The position numbers and the translations under genes were made by a program. From positions 1 through 49,589 of the forward strand of contig JAJDUG010000010.1 of the NCBI GenBank assembly GCA_022826755.1: a stretch of 49,589 bases of DNA, given 5' to 3'. This DNA comes from Acidobacteriota bacterium (GTDB lineage: Bacteria > Acidobacteriota > Terriglobia > Versatilivoradales > Versatilivoraceae). The notes under the pieces are model-generated. The model was not told the origin of the DNA. It did not search any database and saw only the letters and a program-made list of their open reading frames with translations. Shown in pieces: positions 3,223 through 48,375 of this stretch (the first letter of the stretch is position 1; every line of letters starts with the position of its first letter).

Positions 3223-3716
3223 ATCAGGGCTCCGTCGATGAGTTGCTGGGCCTGGTCTTCGGAGACGTCGGAAACCGTTGCCAACTCGCTGACGATCAGT
3301 TGCCGGGCACGGTCGAGCATTTTCTTTTCGCGGAAGGAGAGAATGCGGTTGACGCTCAGCAGGGAGAGACTCTTGAGGACGTCGGCCACCTGGAAGATAC
3401 ATCCTGTCCGCATTTTCTCCGAATTCTCCTTGAAGCGGTTCTTCCAGTCGGTAGCGTTGTTGACCTTGGTGTTCTTCAGGTGTTTCAGAACCTTGGTGAC
3501 TTCCGCTTTCTTGATCAGTCGTCTCAAGCCAACGTCGGTGGCGTTGGTTGCGGGGATCATCACCATCATGTTGTTGGCTGCGATCTTGAGATGATAGAAG
3601 GCTTCCAGTTTGCCGGAGATGCTGCGCCGGTCAATTTGCTCGATGACGCCGACGCCGTGGTTGGGGTAAACGACCTTTTCGCCGATGGCGAAGCTGTTTG
3701 TGGTGACCTGGGCCAT
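3213..3716 (-). CDS. carD: CarD/CdnL-type transcriptional regulator
   Basis: This is an RNA polymerase-binding regulator. CarD proteins contact the beta subunit through an N-terminal Tudor-like domain and stabilise open promoter complexes. The N-terminal part shows FAIGEKVVYPNHGVGVIEQI, the CarD/TRCF signature, followed by a helical C-terminal DNA-contacting domain rich in Lys and Leu. The length is 167 residues, normal for the family. I chose the ATG at 3716 because the longer frame from 3785 would run through the promoter found at 3757-3785. No operon partner: the gene is flanked by a convergent GNAT gene and a divergent mmsA. Confidence 0.93.
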   Translation of the reverse strand: MAQVTTNSFAIGEKVVYPNHGVGVIEQIDRRSISGKLEAFYHLKIAANNMMVMIPATNATDVGLRRLIKKAEVTKVLKHLKNTKVNNATDWKNRFKENSEKMRTGCIFQVADVLKSLSLLSVNRILSFREKKMLDRARQLIVSELATVSDVSEDQAQQLIDGALIQS

Positions 3717-12172: not shown

Positions 12173-12357
12173 CTGAAACAACAGAAAAAAAGAGTTATCC
12201 ACGAAGACACACGAAGGGCGACGAAGGGCCACTAAGAAAGACAATGTTCCTGGCCCACTCATAGGGAACGCTCCGTGGGTTCGGGTGAGGGAAAACACGG
12301 AGAATCAGCTTCCCATGCAACAGTGTCTCGTCCTGTTAATCCTGTGTATCCATGTTC
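12173..12357 (+). repeat. Dispersed ~180 bp repeat, copy A
   Basis: Runs from CTGAAACAACAGAAAAAAAG through TTATCCACGAAG, a GGGTTCGGGTGAGGGAA core and GTGTCTCGTCCTGTTAATCC to CCATGTTCA. The reverse complement of 48201-48375 shows the same blocks in the same order with small gaps. No protein is encoded. It occupies most of the gene-free stretch 12159-12536; the remainder holds a decamer array. Confidence 0.8.
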
Positions 12358-12432
12358 AGTAGGTAGATAACCGAATCACCGGGACAGGGTCCTTGTTGCC
12401 GACAGGCCACGAAGAAAAACGGAAAGAGATCC

Positions 12433-12473
12433 ATTCGTATTCGTGTCTATTCGTGTTTATTCGTGGTTCGTCT
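12433..12473 (+). repeat. ATTCGTG decamer array
   Basis: Period-10 units (ATTCGTGTCT, ATTCGTGTTT, ATTCGTGG) end in GGTTCGTC. The same ~20-base core occurs reversed at 22939-22960 and 36772-36793 and direct at 36957-36976. Function unknown. Confidence 0.7.
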
Positions 12474-12536
12474 TTATCAACGCCCCCCTGTTTCTCTCTC
12501 GAATGATCCGCCCGTCGTAGGGGGCGGGGGCTCGGC

Positions 12537-15916: not shown

Positions 15917-16160
15917 GGAATTCCGGGATCTGGGAGTCGAGGCTGCTTGGCTGCCTGAGGGTCGGTCAGTTGCCCAGGGGACCGAGTATATCCAAGTTGT
16001 TGCCCGTTTCTGTTGCCCATTTCTAGAGTACTGTATAATTCCGCAAGATTGGTGCCGAGAGAGGAGTAGGAGCCGCAAATCCTCGCCCAAGCCCTGGTTA
16101 GCCACCGCCCGTGCCCGACAACGGGACGGATCATAAAGAGTTGAGCAGGGGCGCTTCAGG

Positions 16161-16315
16161 TAAATGGTAAATGGTAAGTGGTCAGTGGTCAGACTTGAGA
16201 GCAGGCAAGTGCCTGATGACCTGTTTGCACTTGTCGATGGACTGCGCCGAGACGGAAAAGGTGCTTTACGTTTCGATCCAATAACTATCCACTAATCACT
16301 AGCCACTCTTCACTG
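16161..16315. repeat. Repeat module flanked by inverted heptamer arms
   Basis: The left arm 16161-16195 reads in sevens (TAAATGG, TAAATGG, TAAGTGG, TCAGTGG, TCAGACT). The right arm 16284-16311 reads ACTATCC, ACTAATC, ACTAGCC, ACTCTTC, the complementary type. Between them, 16199-16279 is a module (GCAGGCAAGTGCCTGATGAC ... CGCCGAGA ... TCGATCC) also seen at 37075-37150 and, in part, at 48158-48190. It lies in the gene-free stretch 15917-16343 between the divergent flippase and glycosyltransferase genes. Confidence 0.75.
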
Positions 16316-16343
16316 TTGTCGCAGTCAAGGTCGGTGGCGGTCC

Positions 16344-35300: not shown

Positions 35301-35451
35301 ATTCCCCATTTCACCCCGAGCCCTCGACAGGCAAGCGCCGACGATCCACATTCGGGTGCGTCCTGTCTGGAATCCCAGCTTGGCCAGGGCGTCCCTGGAC
35401 TACAGAAACCTGGGGAGTGCCGTTCAATGGATCAGGATTGAAGAGTTGTGA
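32311..35451 (+). CDS. Large GT-C-like membrane glycosyltransferase with two C-terminal beta domains
   Basis: A 1046-residue protein whose first ~620 residues hold about 14 hydrophobic segments. An acidic loop after the third or fourth (RDPGEHANIAVRLA, about residue 150) resembles the Asp-containing first loop of GT39/PMT-like enzymes that use lipid-linked sugars. An extracytoplasmic linker (~620-750) follows. Two similar ~140-residue soluble regions then occur, from ~760 and ~903. Each begins with an Fxx..FG-type strand, has a Trp-Ser/Trp-Ala motif and a V.I.LNG or V.VNG.xL strand, and ends with an LGxxhxxIxL-like strand, suggesting tandem jelly-roll carbohydrate modules. The GT-C reading is by architecture only. 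It lies 37 bases after galE and upstream of a methyltransferase. Confidence 0.75.
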   Translation: MEFVPGWKDYSLLLQFAALFGASGWLTYRLAVGRLREPALSGAPSGARLDLFKCLIGPALLSTLCGLIVTSCFLMLSAQLGVARIRYLFVLLAVYSLLCLAWLLKSGGLQWRLPAWRRLRPGWRDLWLAGILLLGLFTFGRTAEYIASQRDPGEHANIAVRLAQEQSLRFSDPDFRNFDEDRQKLFLPVLLENALYLEAVPGFSLLDAETGEMLPQYLHLFPLWLSLAFKLWRFDGLFGFNVLLGLLSLLLVVALSIEIFRSRTVGLVASSLLCLNLGQIWLVRSPFSETLAQVLLLAGVWMLTLALSRRTGGLGFLSGLVFGLSLMVRIDSVLAIVAVAAFLILVRSGLAGRVGLAVRPVAAGLSIGVAYSLAHIALFAYPYALSILHNQGVLSFLDRQWRWLLALALLAAVAAWSSRRLMGAWQDGRLPLATSWGDPASRRRIVFASLSGLLMIAFAWGYFFRPMMDAGANLLPLPPPHQGFVRYYDELNLVRLGWYLSPLGLCLALLGAILALRQVVLKGQVRPLPLLLLLAAFLLFYGYKSRAFPDNYWVIRRYAEVAIPAMLILAGLAMQRLYRMASVHPRLGARSAPRRFLLQACGVGVLTVMAAAQTVAAWPFFRQAELGGSWAQMAALASRTKEADVILFEHGRAQEFFMGPLRNMFGQTVLPLAHAKPDPASFERVVGEFLADKGRVFLISCEEWTSLDSSKYRFEPRERFHFVTHLVERTFERLPEKMQAVHYSLQIYEVKPRPQGGPKAYQALISHSNFGYASEGFHQAEFGAGGNAYRWSQGDASLELSEIDGSYPAVLIARLARPDMGSATESPVRIRLNGQDLGEVRLSPGFKDYKLPIGRSQLARGERNRVEILSDSFNPSALRGWEDTRDLGFMLDCIKLQSLVPMGGTRAYQVDFGTECDGTQRIDFHPTEADGYSWAGIDPSLVWPFPLDPGRKYRLVIRTVKSNPDPAFRQFLTVWVNGVKLDTRELIGVGTQFRNYAFPISPRALDRQAPTIHIRVRPVWNPSLARASLDYRNLGSAVQWIRIEEL

Positions 35452-35503
35452 TCCTGACGACAACGACGTCGGTTCCAGCGCTATAGGGATTGATGGAGTG
35501 GTG

Positions 35504-36574
35504 ATGGAATTTACCGGTGAGAGAATCATCCCGGGAAGCGTCAATGACGACCTCCTGAACGAGCACCTCTGCCGCTACAGGTTCGCCCAGCTCCTGGTGG
35601 AGGACAAGGTGGTCCTGGACGTCGGCTCCGGAGTCGGCTATGGGTCACGAATCCTGGCGGAGAAGGCGGTTTCCGTTCTTGCCCTGGACATCGCGGAAGA
35701 AGCGGTACGCTACGCCGGCCAGCGGTATGCCGGGGAGAATATCGAGCAGGTGGTGGGCGACTGTCATGAACTGCCGCTGGCCAGCGACAGCTTGGATGTG
35801 GTGGTCAGTTTTGAGTTGATCGAGCATCTGCAAGACCAAAGATCCCATTTGCTCGAGGTGAGCCGGGTGCTCAAACCGGATGGATTGACGGTCATTTCCA
35901 CGCCGAATCGAATCTTCTACAGCCAGGAGAGCAACCAGGCCAATCCATTCCACACTCACGAGTTCGACTTCCGGGAGTTCCTCGATTTCCTGAAGTCCGT
36001 GTTCAGCTCCGTGCAGATCTATTTTCAGAATCACATTGCAGGCCTGATCGTTGGGAATCCGAGCCTTGACCGGGAGGTAACGACCTGCCTGGAGGAGGAA
36101 TCCGGCGACCTGGAAGTGACCTCCAACTATTTCGTGGCCGTTTGCACCCATGGCCGGGAATATCAGCCTGCGGCGGGAAACTTCTGCCTGCTGCCGGGGA
36201 CCGGCAACCTGTTGAGAGAACGCCAGCAGAATATTCAGCGCTTGGAAAAGGAGGTCGCCAGGCTCGACAGCGCTCTGACGCGGCTCCAGGGGGAGTACGA
36301 GGAACGTTCCGGCTGGGCGCTGCAGTTGAACCGGCGGGTCAAGGCGAGGGACCAATCCCTGATGGACCTGCGTGCGGAATTCGAGGAGCGCAGCCGATGG
36401 GCGGAAGAGTTGTCCCGACAATTGGAAGAGAAAGACCAGGCAATAGCGAAACTTCAGTCTGAATTCGAGGATCGCACCGAGTGGGCTTTGCAGTTGGACG
36501 CCGAGCTGGAGGCGGTCCGGCAGTCAAAGCTCTACAAGCTGGCCATGTTGCTGGGATTGAAGTTTGAAGGGTGA
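35504..36574 (+). CDS. Class I SAM-dependent methyltransferase with repeated coiled-coil tail
   Basis: The N-terminal half is a Methyltransf_11-type domain: VVLDVGSGVGYGSRILAEK binds SAM, followed by LALDIAEEAV, VVGDCHELPLASDSLDVVVSFELIEHL and LLEVSRVLKPDGLTVISTPN. Residues ~240-345 form a coiled coil with three ~32-residue units of the pattern LQxEFEERSxWAxxL. The tail ends LGLKFEG, whose last codons are part of the heptamer array that starts at 36559, so the C-terminus was shaped by the repeat. ATG 35504 (MEFTGERIIPG) is the family-typical start. Similar methyltransferase-coiled-coil proteins occur in polysaccharide clusters, where they may cap or measure chains. The substrate is unknown. 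Confidence 0.88.
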   Translation: MEFTGERIIPGSVNDDLLNEHLCRYRFAQLLVEDKVVLDVGSGVGYGSRILAEKAVSVLALDIAEEAVRYAGQRYAGENIEQVVGDCHELPLASDSLDVVVSFELIEHLQDQRSHLLEVSRVLKPDGLTVISTPNRIFYSQESNQANPFHTHEFDFREFLDFLKSVFSSVQIYFQNHIAGLIVGNPSLDREVTTCLEEESGDLEVTSNYFVAVCTHGREYQPAAGNFCLLPGTGNLLRERQQNIQRLEKEVARLDSALTRLQGEYEERSGWALQLNRRVKARDQSLMDLRAEFEERSRWAEELSRQLEEKDQAIAKLQSEFEDRTEWALQLDAELEAVRQSKLYKLAMLLGLKFEG

Positions 36575-36670
36575 AGTTTGAAGTGTGAAGTTTGAAGTGT
36601 GAAGTTTGAAGTTTGAAGTGGGAAGTGGGAAGTTTGAAGTGGGAAGTGGGAAGTTTGAAGTGGGAAGTGG
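36559..36670 (+). repeat. Sixteen-unit heptamer array GAAGTTT/GAAGTGG
   Basis: Exactly sixteen period-7 units (112 bases), mostly GAAGTTT, GAAGTGT and GAAGTGG, begin inside the last codons of the methyltransferase gene and include its TGA stop. The mirror array on the other strand is at 37157-37190. Confidence 0.9.
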
Positions 36671-36767
36671 TCGGCAACGCCTCCGCCCCAGGCCACGGGA
36701 GGCGTCAGACAAGCGGGCCCCAGCGCTGCGGTGCGTACCATTTTCCTGAAATCGGCCGATCTTCAAC

Positions 36768-36980
36768 AAAAGACGAACCACGAATGGACACGAATAGACA
36801 CAAATGCTGATGAACCAACTCATGGACAAGCGCCGCCCAAATGCTTCTGCAGCCTTGTACCTTGGTATGGCTTCGTATCCTTTCCAATTTACCCCTCGAT
36901 ACTGGCTGTAAGCCCCCCAATCAACACCTCATCAATCAGTGTATTGGTGCTCATTGGTGTCCATTCGTGGTTCGTCTTTT
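36768..36980. repeat. 24-bp perfect inverted repeat enclosing ~165 bp
   Basis: The left arm 36768-36791 (starts AAAAGACGAACCACGAATGG) and right arm 36957-36980 (ends CATTCGTGGTTCGTCTTTT) are exact reverse complements over 24 bases. The arms belong to the decamer repeat also at 12433 and 22939. The enclosed sequence encodes nothing I can support. The pair sits inside the outer heptamer arrays. Confidence 0.8.
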
Positions 36981-37074
36981 TCCTTTTGGGACAACTCTTA
37001 TCGGTTCTTCGCGGATGTCGTTGCCGGATATCCCCCCGACTGGTTGGAGACAAGCGGAGGGTTTTTGGAACGGG

Positions 37075-37150
37075 TAAGTGGCTGATGACCTGGTTGAGCC
37101 TTTCTGAATGACTACGCCGAGATCGACAAGGTGATTAACCTGTCGATCCC
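37075..37150 (+). repeat. Dispersed module, copy 2
   Basis: Shares AAGTG.CTGATGACCTG, CGCCGAGA, AAGGTG and TCGATCC in the same order with 16199-16279. Here it is followed at once by a heptamer array, as in the first copy. Confidence 0.65.
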
Positions 37151-37156
37151 ACATCT

Positions 37157-37190
37157 CTTCAAACTTCAAACTTCAAACTTCAAACTTCAA
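37157..37190 (-). repeat. Heptamer array at the aldehyde dehydrogenase stop codon
   Basis: Nearly five units of CTTCAAA on the plus strand, that is TTTGAAG on the minus strand. The TGA stop of the microcompartment aldehyde dehydrogenase (37187-37189) is the first TGA of the array, which has the same unit and orientation relative to its gene as the array at 36559. Confidence 0.85.
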
Positions 37191-38956
37191 TCAAGGTAGA
37201 CAAGAACGGCTTTCTGGTTGCCTAGATCGCGCGCGGCCGGGGTGATGATGGACTTCCCGTTGACGTGAATCTTGCGGTCTTCCTTCACTGCCTGCCGGAT
37301 GTCATCCTCACAAACGAAGCTCGCCGGTTCCGGCGGATCCGGAGTTGGCTCGGGGGTGGCAGGCTGAGCCGGCGGTGCTGCAGGTTCGGCCGGGGTTTGG
37401 AATGCGAGCCGGCGGTTCGCCATCAGGCGATCCACCAGGGCCGAGACCTCTCCTCGATCGATGGGGGCTGCTTTCGGTTGCGGAACGCTAACGGCCCGGG
37501 ATGAGTCCTCCCCGAGATCGTGAGTGCGGCTGTATGCCACCCGCTTGATGTTGATCAGGTGAAGCGGGGAAATATTGTCGGAAGTGATGTTGCCGCCAAG
37601 GGTTCCACATCCCAGAGTCATGCTCGGAAAGAGTCGGGTGGTGTAGCCCACGGCTCCCAGGGCCGCCTGGGTATTGACGACGATTCGAAAGACGGGCTTC
37701 CGCAGGCCGAATTGACGAATAATCTCGTCGTTTTTGGAATGGATGGCCAGGGTGTGTCCCAACCCTCCGTAGTTGAGTAGCTCGATGCAGCGATCGCAAG
37801 CCGCCTCCCAGTCTTTTTCCACGTAGAAAGCCAAAATCGGGGAGAGCTTTTCTATGGACAGGGGGTAGTCCCGACCAACGCCCGAGAGCGGGGCTACCAG
37901 GACCCGCGTACCCTCCGGAATCCTGATCCCGGCCAGGGCGGCGATGGTTGCTGCCGGCTTGCCGACGATCTTGGGGTTCGCCGTCCGCCTGGGAGTGACG
38001 ACCACGTGGGCCAACGACTGGATTTCCTGTTCGTTCAGGAAATGGCCGCCGTTGTGCTTGATCTCTTCAATCACACGATCCTTGATGGCGGCATCGGTGA
38101 CAACGGCCTGCTCCGAGGAACAGAGCGTGCCGTTGTCAAAGCACTTGCCGGCAAAGATGTCCTGAATGGCCTGAGGGATGTCAGCCGAGGATTCCACGTA
38201 GGCGGGGACGTTGCCCGGACCCACCCCGAAGGCAGGCTTTCCCACACTGTAGGCGGCCTTGACAAGACCATGCCCTCCGGTAGCCAGGATCAGGGCGGTC
38301 TTGCGATGGCTCATCAGCTCCCGTGTTCCTTCGATGGTGGATTGGGACAGACAACCGATTGAACCCTCGGGCGCGCCGGCTGCGACCGCGGCCTCCGACA
38401 GGATTCTGCTGGTCTCTCGGATGCAGCCCGCGGCCGAGGGGTGGGGGCTGAAAACGATGGTGTTGCGGCCCTTGAGCGCAATCAGGGCCTTGTTGATGGT
38501 GGTGGAGGTCGGGTTGGTGGAGGGAATGATCGCGGCGATGACTCCGACCGGCGAGGCGATCTCCAGGATTCCTTTTTCTCTGTCCTCTCCGATGATGCCG
38601 ACCGTCCTGAGGTCTTTGATGGCCTCGTGGACAAACTCGGAGCCGAATTTGTTTTTGAGGATCTTGTCGGCGACGTTGCCGAAACCGGTTTCCTCCACGG
38701 CCATGCGGGCAAGCTTCTCCGCGGCCCCCAGTCCGGCCTCGGCCATGTGTCGAACCACGGAATCGACCTGGTCCTGGGAGAATTGAGCGAGCCGGGCCTG
38801 AGCCTGGAATGCCTTGTCAAGGAGTGACCGCGCCTGCTGAATGGACTCGAGATCTCTATCCATGGCCTGTGGAAGGTCCGGAGTAGGTTGGAGAGGTTGG
38901 TCGGAAGAGATTCCGCCGGACAACGTCGGCGCCCGAGGCTGCAGGGCCGCCGTCAT
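37187..38956 (-). CDS. CoA-acylating aldehyde dehydrogenase of a bacterial microcompartment, with C-terminal extension
   Basis: An EutE/PduP-like enzyme that converts an aldehyde plus CoA and NAD+ to an acyl-CoA inside a protein shell. The catalytic domain (about residues 35-480) has IASPVGVIAAIIPSTNPTSTTINKALIALK, VGPGNVPAYVE, Cys279 in FDNGTLCSSEQ and LGHTLAIHSKND. Residues ~485-589 are extra compared with the ~465-residue family. They comprise an amphipathic segment RGEVSALVDRLMANRRLA resembling an encapsulation peptide, a Pro/Ala linker and a terminal ~44-residue block with VCEDDIRQAV and IITPAARDL. The TPAAR core resembles short segments in EutQ/EutT-like microcompartment proteins (from memory). 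It lies 25 bases downstream of the shell gene in one operon. Which aldehyde it uses cannot be read. Confidence 0.93.
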   Translation of the reverse strand: MTAALQPRAPTLSGGISSDQPLQPTPDLPQAMDRDLESIQQARSLLDKAFQAQARLAQFSQDQVDSVVRHMAEAGLGAAEKLARMAVEETGFGNVADKILKNKFGSEFVHEAIKDLRTVGIIGEDREKGILEIASPVGVIAAIIPSTNPTSTTINKALIALKGRNTIVFSPHPSAAGCIRETSRILSEAAVAAGAPEGSIGCLSQSTIEGTRELMSHRKTALILATGGHGLVKAAYSVGKPAFGVGPGNVPAYVESSADIPQAIQDIFAGKCFDNGTLCSSEQAVVTDAAIKDRVIEEIKHNGGHFLNEQEIQSLAHVVVTPRRTANPKIVGKPAATIAALAGIRIPEGTRVLVAPLSGVGRDYPLSIEKLSPILAFYVEKDWEAACDRCIELLNYGGLGHTLAIHSKNDEIIRQFGLRKPVFRIVVNTQAALGAVGYTTRLFPSMTLGCGTLGGNITSDNISPLHLINIKRVAYSRTHDLGEDSSRAVSVPQPKAAPIDRGEVSALVDRLMANRRLAFQTPAEPAAPPAQPATPEPTPDPPEPASFVCEDDIRQAVKEDRKIHVNGKSIITPAARDLGNQKAVLVYLD

Positions 38957-46490: not shown

Positions 46491-46928
46491 ATGAAATTGT
46501 CCACAAGAGGTGAATATGGCCTGTTGGCGATCATCGATCTGGCCCTGCATTCCCTTGAGGCGCCCGTACAGAGCGCCCAGATCGCCGAACGACAGAACAT
46601 TCCCAAACAGTACCTGGATCAGCTCCTGCTGTTCCTGAAGAAGGCCGGCCTGGTCGAGAGCAGCCGGGGACGTCAAGGCGGCTACCAGTTGGCTCGATCC
46701 GCCAGTCACATCAATCTGCTTCAGGTGGTGAGGGCGCTGGAGGGTTCGATCGACAGTAGCGACCTCTTCATGAGGGAAGGGGCGAACCAGGACCCTACCC
46801 GGAAGATTCTCAGAGATCTCTGGGCGGAAATCGACGCACATGCGTCGGCTGCCTTGCGTTCGACTACCGTGGAAGAGGTGTGTGAAAGACGGAAGAAGCT
46901 GGACCCCCAGATCATGTACTACATTTAG
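46491..46928 (+). CDS. Rrf2-family regulator, CymR-like
   Basis: A 145-residue winged-helix regulator: MKLSTRGEYGLLAIIDLALHS, AQIAERQNIPKQYLDQLLLFLKKAGLVESSRGRQGGYQLA, then INLLQVVRALEG. The three clustered Cys that hold the cluster in IscR/NsrR are absent; only one Cys (CERRK, about residue 131) is seen, so it resembles CymR, which controls cysteine synthesis in Firmicutes and works with CysK. It stands between cysH (divergent) and cysK (downstream, same strand), which points to sulfur control. It ends in TAG directly abutting a heptamer array. Confidence 0.92.
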   Translation: MKLSTRGEYGLLAIIDLALHSLEAPVQSAQIAERQNIPKQYLDQLLLFLKKAGLVESSRGRQGGYQLARSASHINLLQVVRALEGSIDSSDLFMREGANQDPTRKILRDLWAEIDAHASAALRSTTVEEVCERRKKLDPQIMYYI

Positions 46929-46977
46929 TGGAGAGTGGAGAGTGGAGAGTGGAGAGTGGAGAGTGGAGAGTGGAGAG
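46929..46977 (+). repeat. Seven perfect TGGAGAG heptamers after the Rrf2 stop codon
   Basis: 49 bases, seven identical units, starting at the first base after the TAG stop. It lies in the leader between the regulator and cysK. Confidence 0.95.
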
Positions 46978-48060: not shown

Positions 48061-48157
48061 CCCGCCCTTCCAGGCAAGCCGCGCCCCCGCCCCCCACGAC
48101 GGAATGGATCATACGAGAGAGGAACAGGATTGTTTTACAACAGGTTGTAGTTTCCAG

Positions 48158-48190
48158 GAGCAGGCAAGCGCCTTGTAACGTGGTTGCACT
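48158..48190 (+). repeat. Dispersed module, partial copy 3
   Basis: GAGCAGGCAAGCGCCT and GTGGTTGCACT match the first ~35 bases of the module at 16199. It abuts the inverted copy B of the ~180 bp repeat, so two families are joined here. Confidence 0.6.
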
Positions 48191-48200
48191 CTATTTTTTA

Positions 48201-48375
48201 TGAACATGGATGCACAGGATGCACAGGATTGACAGGACGAGACACTGTGCACGGGAAGCGGACTGGCTGCGTGTTCCCTCACCCGAACGCAAGGGGCGTT
48301 CCCTTTGAGGGGGTCAAGAACATTAGTCTTTCTTCGTGTGCCTTCGTGGAGTCCTCTTTTTTTCTGTTGTTTCAG
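48201..48375 (-). repeat. Dispersed ~180 bp repeat, copy B (inverted)
   Basis: The reverse complement reads CTGAAACAACAGAAAAAAAG, CCACGAAG, a GTTCGGGTGAGGGAA core, GTGTCTCGTCCTGTCAATCC and CCATGTTCA, in the same order as 12173-12357. It fills most of the gene-free stretch 48061-48442. Confidence 0.8.

Follow-up and report, generated by a model that had tools for sequence, protein, structure and literature searches.

The 49,589-nucleotide stretch of acidobacterial DNA analysed here (the window) carries, between two convergent genes, a repeat island that almost certainly consists of the decayed remnants of two nested, probably selfish elements and not of one unit. The reading we favour, with a probability of about 0.7, is that a non-autonomous S23-type element entered the gap between the convergent genes and later received a GxxExxY-type element, the mirrored arms recombining with one another and S23 perhaps assisting. 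Beyond this island, the S23 gene set between mirror-image heptamer arrays is a widespread and previously undescribed architecture; a search of the open-access literature found no paper joining S23 or GxxExxY to heptamer repeats. S23/IVP proteins (PF05635) are encoded by the intervening sequences (IVS) of 23S rRNA, for example in Coxiella burnetii, and the origin and mobility of these sequences are unexplained (PMC4990558). Heptamer repeats are known from cyanobacteria (STRR) and from Beggiatoaceae (PMC4679880). A Xanthomonas study describes about 70 inverted (convergent) pairs of GGGAATC repeats per genome, generally not tied to mobile elements (PMC4692102), and a 2018 survey finds heptamers to be the commonest type of short tandem repeat in the intergenic DNA of prokaryotes and sees 'no clear clue' to what they do (PMC6344855). 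The link between S23 and the arrays makes both unexplained matters, the heptamer repeats and the mobility of S23 IVS, testable, and the arms predict a binding site for S23.

Architecture of the island

The features of the island, together with a second outer-type copy elsewhere in the window, are as follows.

35417 to 36574, + strand: methyltransferase gene (host), 3' end changed by insertion
36558 to 36670, + strand: left heptamer array (GAAGTTT type) of the outer element, G-rich strand reading inward
36673 to 37052, no strand assigned: inner (B) element, 380 bp, edges taken from locus L049 of relative G006 and from other outer copies
36768 to 36805, + strand: left arm of the B element, first 24 nt exact
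36943 to 36980, - strand: right arm of the B element
37067 to 37149, + strand: 3' remnant of an S23/IVP four-helix-bundle gene (the '16199 module'), from a profile; direct match at 37073 to 37149, 77%
37157 to 37190, - strand: right heptamer array of the outer element
37187 to 38956, - strand: acetaldehyde dehydrogenase (acetylating) gene (host), 3' end changed by insertion
16152 to 16318, + strand: second outer-type copy, comprising an array, an S23 3' remnant (16199 to 16282) and an inverted array

The preliminary description of this DNA had reported heptamer arrays in opposite orientation enclosing both an inverted repeat and one copy of the 16199 module; each of these parts is present, and the coordinates given for them hold. 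The left array reaches a TRF score of at most 159, and the right array, of opposite orientation, consists of 4.9 copies of CTTCAAA at 100% identity. Between them, the B element sits between the GTGGTC and AGCGGAGGG of the outer element, and its arms contain an exact 24-bp inverted repeat (36768 to 36791 with 36957 to 36980) that extends to 38 nt with 87% complementarity; a hand estimate gives on the order of 1e-9 for such an exact pair arising by chance within about 650 bp. It had also been claimed that array sequence forms the ends of both genes, and this too is borne out: the methyltransferase ends in LKFEG with its TGA falling within the left array, and the TGA stop of the aldehyde dehydrogenase is part of an ATTGAAG unit of the right array. 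From reading the sequences, the proteins of element-free relatives end instead in LKVRA and VYLA.

Other repeats in the window include a perfect AGTGGAG array of 7.3 copies (46927 to 46977), which looks solo, no S23 remnant having been detected adjoining it. Dispersed repeats at 12197 to 12478 and 48157 to 48362 (CACGAAGACACACGAAGG... and ATCCTGTGCATCC units) have one arm in common with the inner element and are probably a third, related family.

The outer element and S23 genes of the same genome

Within the genome to which the window belongs (4.6 Mb in 81 contigs), the 16199 module has 35 matches and S23 (TIGR02436) four. At L006 and L009, S23 genes are flanked by inverted GAAGTTT-type arrays, the gene at L009 having one internal stop codon; L010 holds a partial S23 gene with degenerate arrays, and at L008 an S23 gene lies between GTGAAGA/GTGGAGA arrays. 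With a profile extended outward from the 16199 copy, the intact S23 gene (L008/L002) is matched at E = 7.5e-11; a remnant at L012 matches an S23 protein at 4e-6, and all well-preserved copies of the module are preceded by a heptamer array and followed by its inverse. From this profile match and array context, we conclude that the module represents the 3' end of an S23 gene, which makes the outer part of the island a miniature S23 element. PF05635 itself is matched at 1e-19 and 4e-39 in the gene-bearing relatives of the element within the same genome, and the island retains the 3' remnant only. By hand count, about 9 of 12 GAAGTTT-type places in this genome hold S23-derived sequence. As the majority of outer copies retain no more than a remnant, the role of S23 is assigned by association.

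One outer-type element with arrays (L011, 1160 to 1835; G000:C20) encloses an unrelated open reading frame of about 100 codons, possibly cargo, and the start of its S23 module is duplicated.

The inner element

According to the search and a profile, the inner inverted repeat occurs at a few dozen places in the genome, and the inner element also stands alone, away from outer elements. Its arms are the arms found around the genome's only GxxExxY gene (L007) and the orthologues of that gene in G001 and G006; the gene is nuclease-like, of the PDDEXK_3 nuclease superfamily. Inverted arms accompany 16 of the 23 GxxExxY loci in the phylum, and viral contigs gave no confirmed GxxExxY match. The idea that the interior of the B element is a simple deletion derivative of a GxxExxY gene was rejected: the arms and a stretch after the stop codon match, and the interior has no convincing alignment to the gene.

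History of the gap and preference for gene ends

In the same-genus relatives G001, G003 and G005, the orthologous gap is empty and the two genes nearly abut. In G006, the closest relative by flank identity (95% at several loci), the gap holds the outer element only, with its module inverted. The proposal that the island is a composite non-autonomous element targeting gene ends thus largely holds, in view of the dispersed families, the empty gaps and the proximity of the elements to stop codons. The part that treated it as a single composite does not: the island is indeed absent as a whole from the three relatives with empty gaps, yet it is not one unit, the closest relative having the outer element only and the inner element being found alone elsewhere.

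About 21 bp of host sequence, CCTGACTCTTCAGGCCCTTAC, lying between CTACCTTG and CTTCAATCCC, gave way to the outer element, so that this was no simple insertion; neither the focal outer nor the focal inner insertion showed a target-site duplication. The same gap in G004 holds a different repeat element (L047, G004:C47, approximately 3245 to 3490) with the 10-bp direct repeat CTTGCCTGAA on either side, a possible target-site duplication.

The island and its relatives are located between protein genes. Where a neighbouring gene has its end facing an element, its stop lies within 60 bp of the element's edge in 37 of 42 cases by hand count. Neighbour orientation, read from open frames and G+C content at third codon positions and not from annotation, was convergent in 9 cases, tandem in 24 and divergent in 5, so that convergent pairs are not clearly preferred. 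Several draft contigs of relatives (L187, L189, L190, L198 and L200) end near these elements, and copy number is therefore probably undercounted in short-read assemblies.

These observations bear on a second proposal of the preliminary description, that the island acts as a two-way terminator or insulator. RNA folding, which it had named as a check, far exceeds that of shuffled sequences on both strands (z of -7.85 and -5.15). Strong folding of both strands, combined with the position between convergent genes, is what a bidirectional terminator or insulator under selection would display, and it is also how nested inverted repeats must fold. We judge the chance of such a function to be very remote: in the three relatives the two genes abut, separated by next to no sequence, copies lie mostly between tandem genes, and terminator-like sites number two in the region, against 2.0 expected, with no intrinsic terminator (G+C-rich hairpin plus T tract) matched in the island itself.

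Inversion in place

Orientation of the module was judged relative to the flanking genes, from local alignment scores in the same and the inverted orientation. Against G006, the focal module scored 15 in the same orientation and 99 inverted (shuffles reached at most 22), and the flanks scored 232 and 380 in the same orientation. Inverted scores also prevailed at L091 (185 vs 16 in the same orientation) and at L008 (123 vs 20). The nearly intact S23 gene at L009 scored 596 inverted and 23 in the same orientation against G003, and 561 in the same orientation against G004. Flanks kept their orientation at the three loci tested (focal, L091 and L009). At L091, G000, G003 and the flipped G006 share the same outermost right array units, which makes inversion more likely than re-insertion. 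It is therefore quite likely that the arms recombine in place, and such inversion could arise from ordinary recombination at any inverted repeat. Between two near-identical Trichormus plasmids no flipping was seen, the orientation being the same in both.

In-place inversion at four loci would equally be expected of an outer element that serves as an invertible switch with a regulatory use and is not selfish. We consider this improbable, as the cores are mostly decayed, presence among species is sporadic, and a promoter-like site was not found at the island.

S23 genes with matched heptamer arms in other genomes

For each S23 gene, the best inverted match was sought between the 220 bp before and the 220 bp after the gene; controls joined left and right flanks taken from different loci, and the 95% level of these controls served as the threshold. 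Within the phylum, 22 of 27 S23 genes exceeded it, as did 61 of 72 in named public genomes from many phyla, where about 3.6 would be expected. Eight genomes surveyed copy by copy, in a set that partly overlaps the 72 genes, yielded 25 of 30 loci above threshold. S23 was carried by 38 viral contigs, and 27 of 30 passed the same threshold; a search of phage records for S23 found none. Among the 51 arms regular enough to score, the period was 7 in 43 and 8 in 6, the inward-reading strand contained 39% G and 11% C, and AGG or AGT occurred in 41 of 51 units, compared with 25 in permuted units. One Nostoc genome has 14 S23 matches; the readable copies there differ from one another in their unit, and their left and right arms agree. 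Selection of the arrays for stop codons in all three frames was discarded as an explanation, there being no clear excess of units with this property (30 vs an expectation of 24.8 under permutation of the units).

In Anabaena UHCC 0204, only one of nine places with a TAGGGAA array has S23 and an inverted partner, and eight lack both; S23 elements therefore do not explain all heptamer arrays, and arrays exist or spread without S23. Solo arrays, common in Anabaena, are among the grounds for supposing that the arrays are simple sequences grown by slippage at gene ends, which S23 and GxxExxY genes merely tolerate, with the inverted pairing produced by occasional snap-back copying. Variation of array length and unit between species at a single site points the same way (GAAGTTT vs GAATGAT at L017; GAAGTTT vs GTGGTCA at L012). 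We nonetheless find this explanation unlikely: it is already weakened by the matching of left and right arrays around 61 of 72 S23 genes, orthologous sites either have or lack the entire element, and an S23 remnant is common to the approximately 35 dispersed copies.

Two plasmid loci have S23 with inverted heptamer arms in other gene contexts, between cas6 and cas4 on Anabaena sp. 90 plasmid pANA02 (L358) and between two ribonucleotide reductase genes on Nostoc edaphicum plasmid pNe_5 (L355).

Relation to known systems and proposed movement

The closely comparable 23S rRNA IVS likewise place an S23/IVP gene between inverted, complementary termini able to form one long stem, and are sporadic and apparently selfish; they have for a long time been suspected of mobility. 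From the transcript, IVS are cut out by RNase III. IVS lie within an rRNA helix (23S or 16S), whereas the elements described here lie between protein genes and have arms that are mostly arrays of period 7, many miniature copies and an invertible core. Their arrays resemble known heptanucleotide repeats in period, in having one G-rich strand and in their intergenic location, and the Xanthomonas pairs are also inverted; unlike those described here, which have S23 between the pairs, the repeats are linked to no gene or element in the available text of the two studies (PMC4692102, PMC6344855).

Both layers of the island are MITE-like, with many short non-autonomous copies bearing terminal inverted repeats. 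MITEs and the REPINs mobilised by RAYT are alike in being short, dispersed and non-autonomous, with inverted ends and locations near genes (PMC3116915, PMC10969869); they are unlike in that the present genome is without a RAYT, the genes are S23 and GxxExxY, and the ends are variable arrays. It might accordingly be argued that the two layers are ordinary MITEs, cross-mobilised by a DNA transposase whose gene lies elsewhere in the genome, since they are short, dispersed, provided with terminal inverted repeats and devoid of a transposase of their own, and since the related insertion in G004 has its 10-bp direct repeat. There is little likelihood of this: Y1_Tnp/RAYT, the one transposase family searched, has no match in the genome, and 5 of 14 control genomes do match; the focal insertions have no target-site duplication; the terminal sequence varies from element to element, unlike an end recognised by a transposase; and gene-bearing relatives sharing the ends contain no transposase, the enclosed genes being S23 or GxxExxY instead. 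Mobilisation of RAYT/REP type was set aside for want of Y1_Tnp in the genome.

The S23 protein of L008 matches profiles of Avd/bAvd, the accessory protein of diversity-generating retroelements (DGR), weakly (5e-7 and 9e-7, below curated cut-offs), so that at sequence level S23 may be a distant relative of Avd, if weakly so. In contrast to DGR, the genome yielded a single reverse transcriptase, which appears from a reading of its protein to be of the group II intron type; a dedicated retroelement was rejected on this account, and the group II intron-like enzyme may act in trans on S23 elements.

For the nested S23-type and GxxExxY-type elements, movement is suggested by copy number and empty sites. 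The outer S23-type element would have inserted into the gap between the two convergent genes, and the inner non-autonomous GxxExxY-type element would then have inserted into the outer one. Insertion beside stop codons would be tolerated because the arrays supply a new stop at once, as they do here. The mirrored arrays would pair and recombine, flipping the core, and exchange between arms would hold left and right arms within an element to a common unit, even as the unit drifts from one element to the next. The S23 protein is likely to bind the arms or an arm hairpin, and could help movement via a single-stranded or RNA intermediate, with a nuclease, polymerase or reverse transcriptase presumably supplied by the host. 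Movement assisted by S23 is doubtful; if true, an element moving with only a helical-bundle protein of about 120 residues would be unusual. We offer more tentatively than the history of this island the generalisation that S23 with inverted heptamer arms forms a widespread class of very small mobile elements without a recombinase of their own, with arms homogenised by flipping and with solo or decayed remains making up a good part of prokaryotic heptamers, GxxExxY elements being a parallel class with differently spaced arms. S23 elements may, at the least, explain some of the unexplained 7-base repeats across bacteria.
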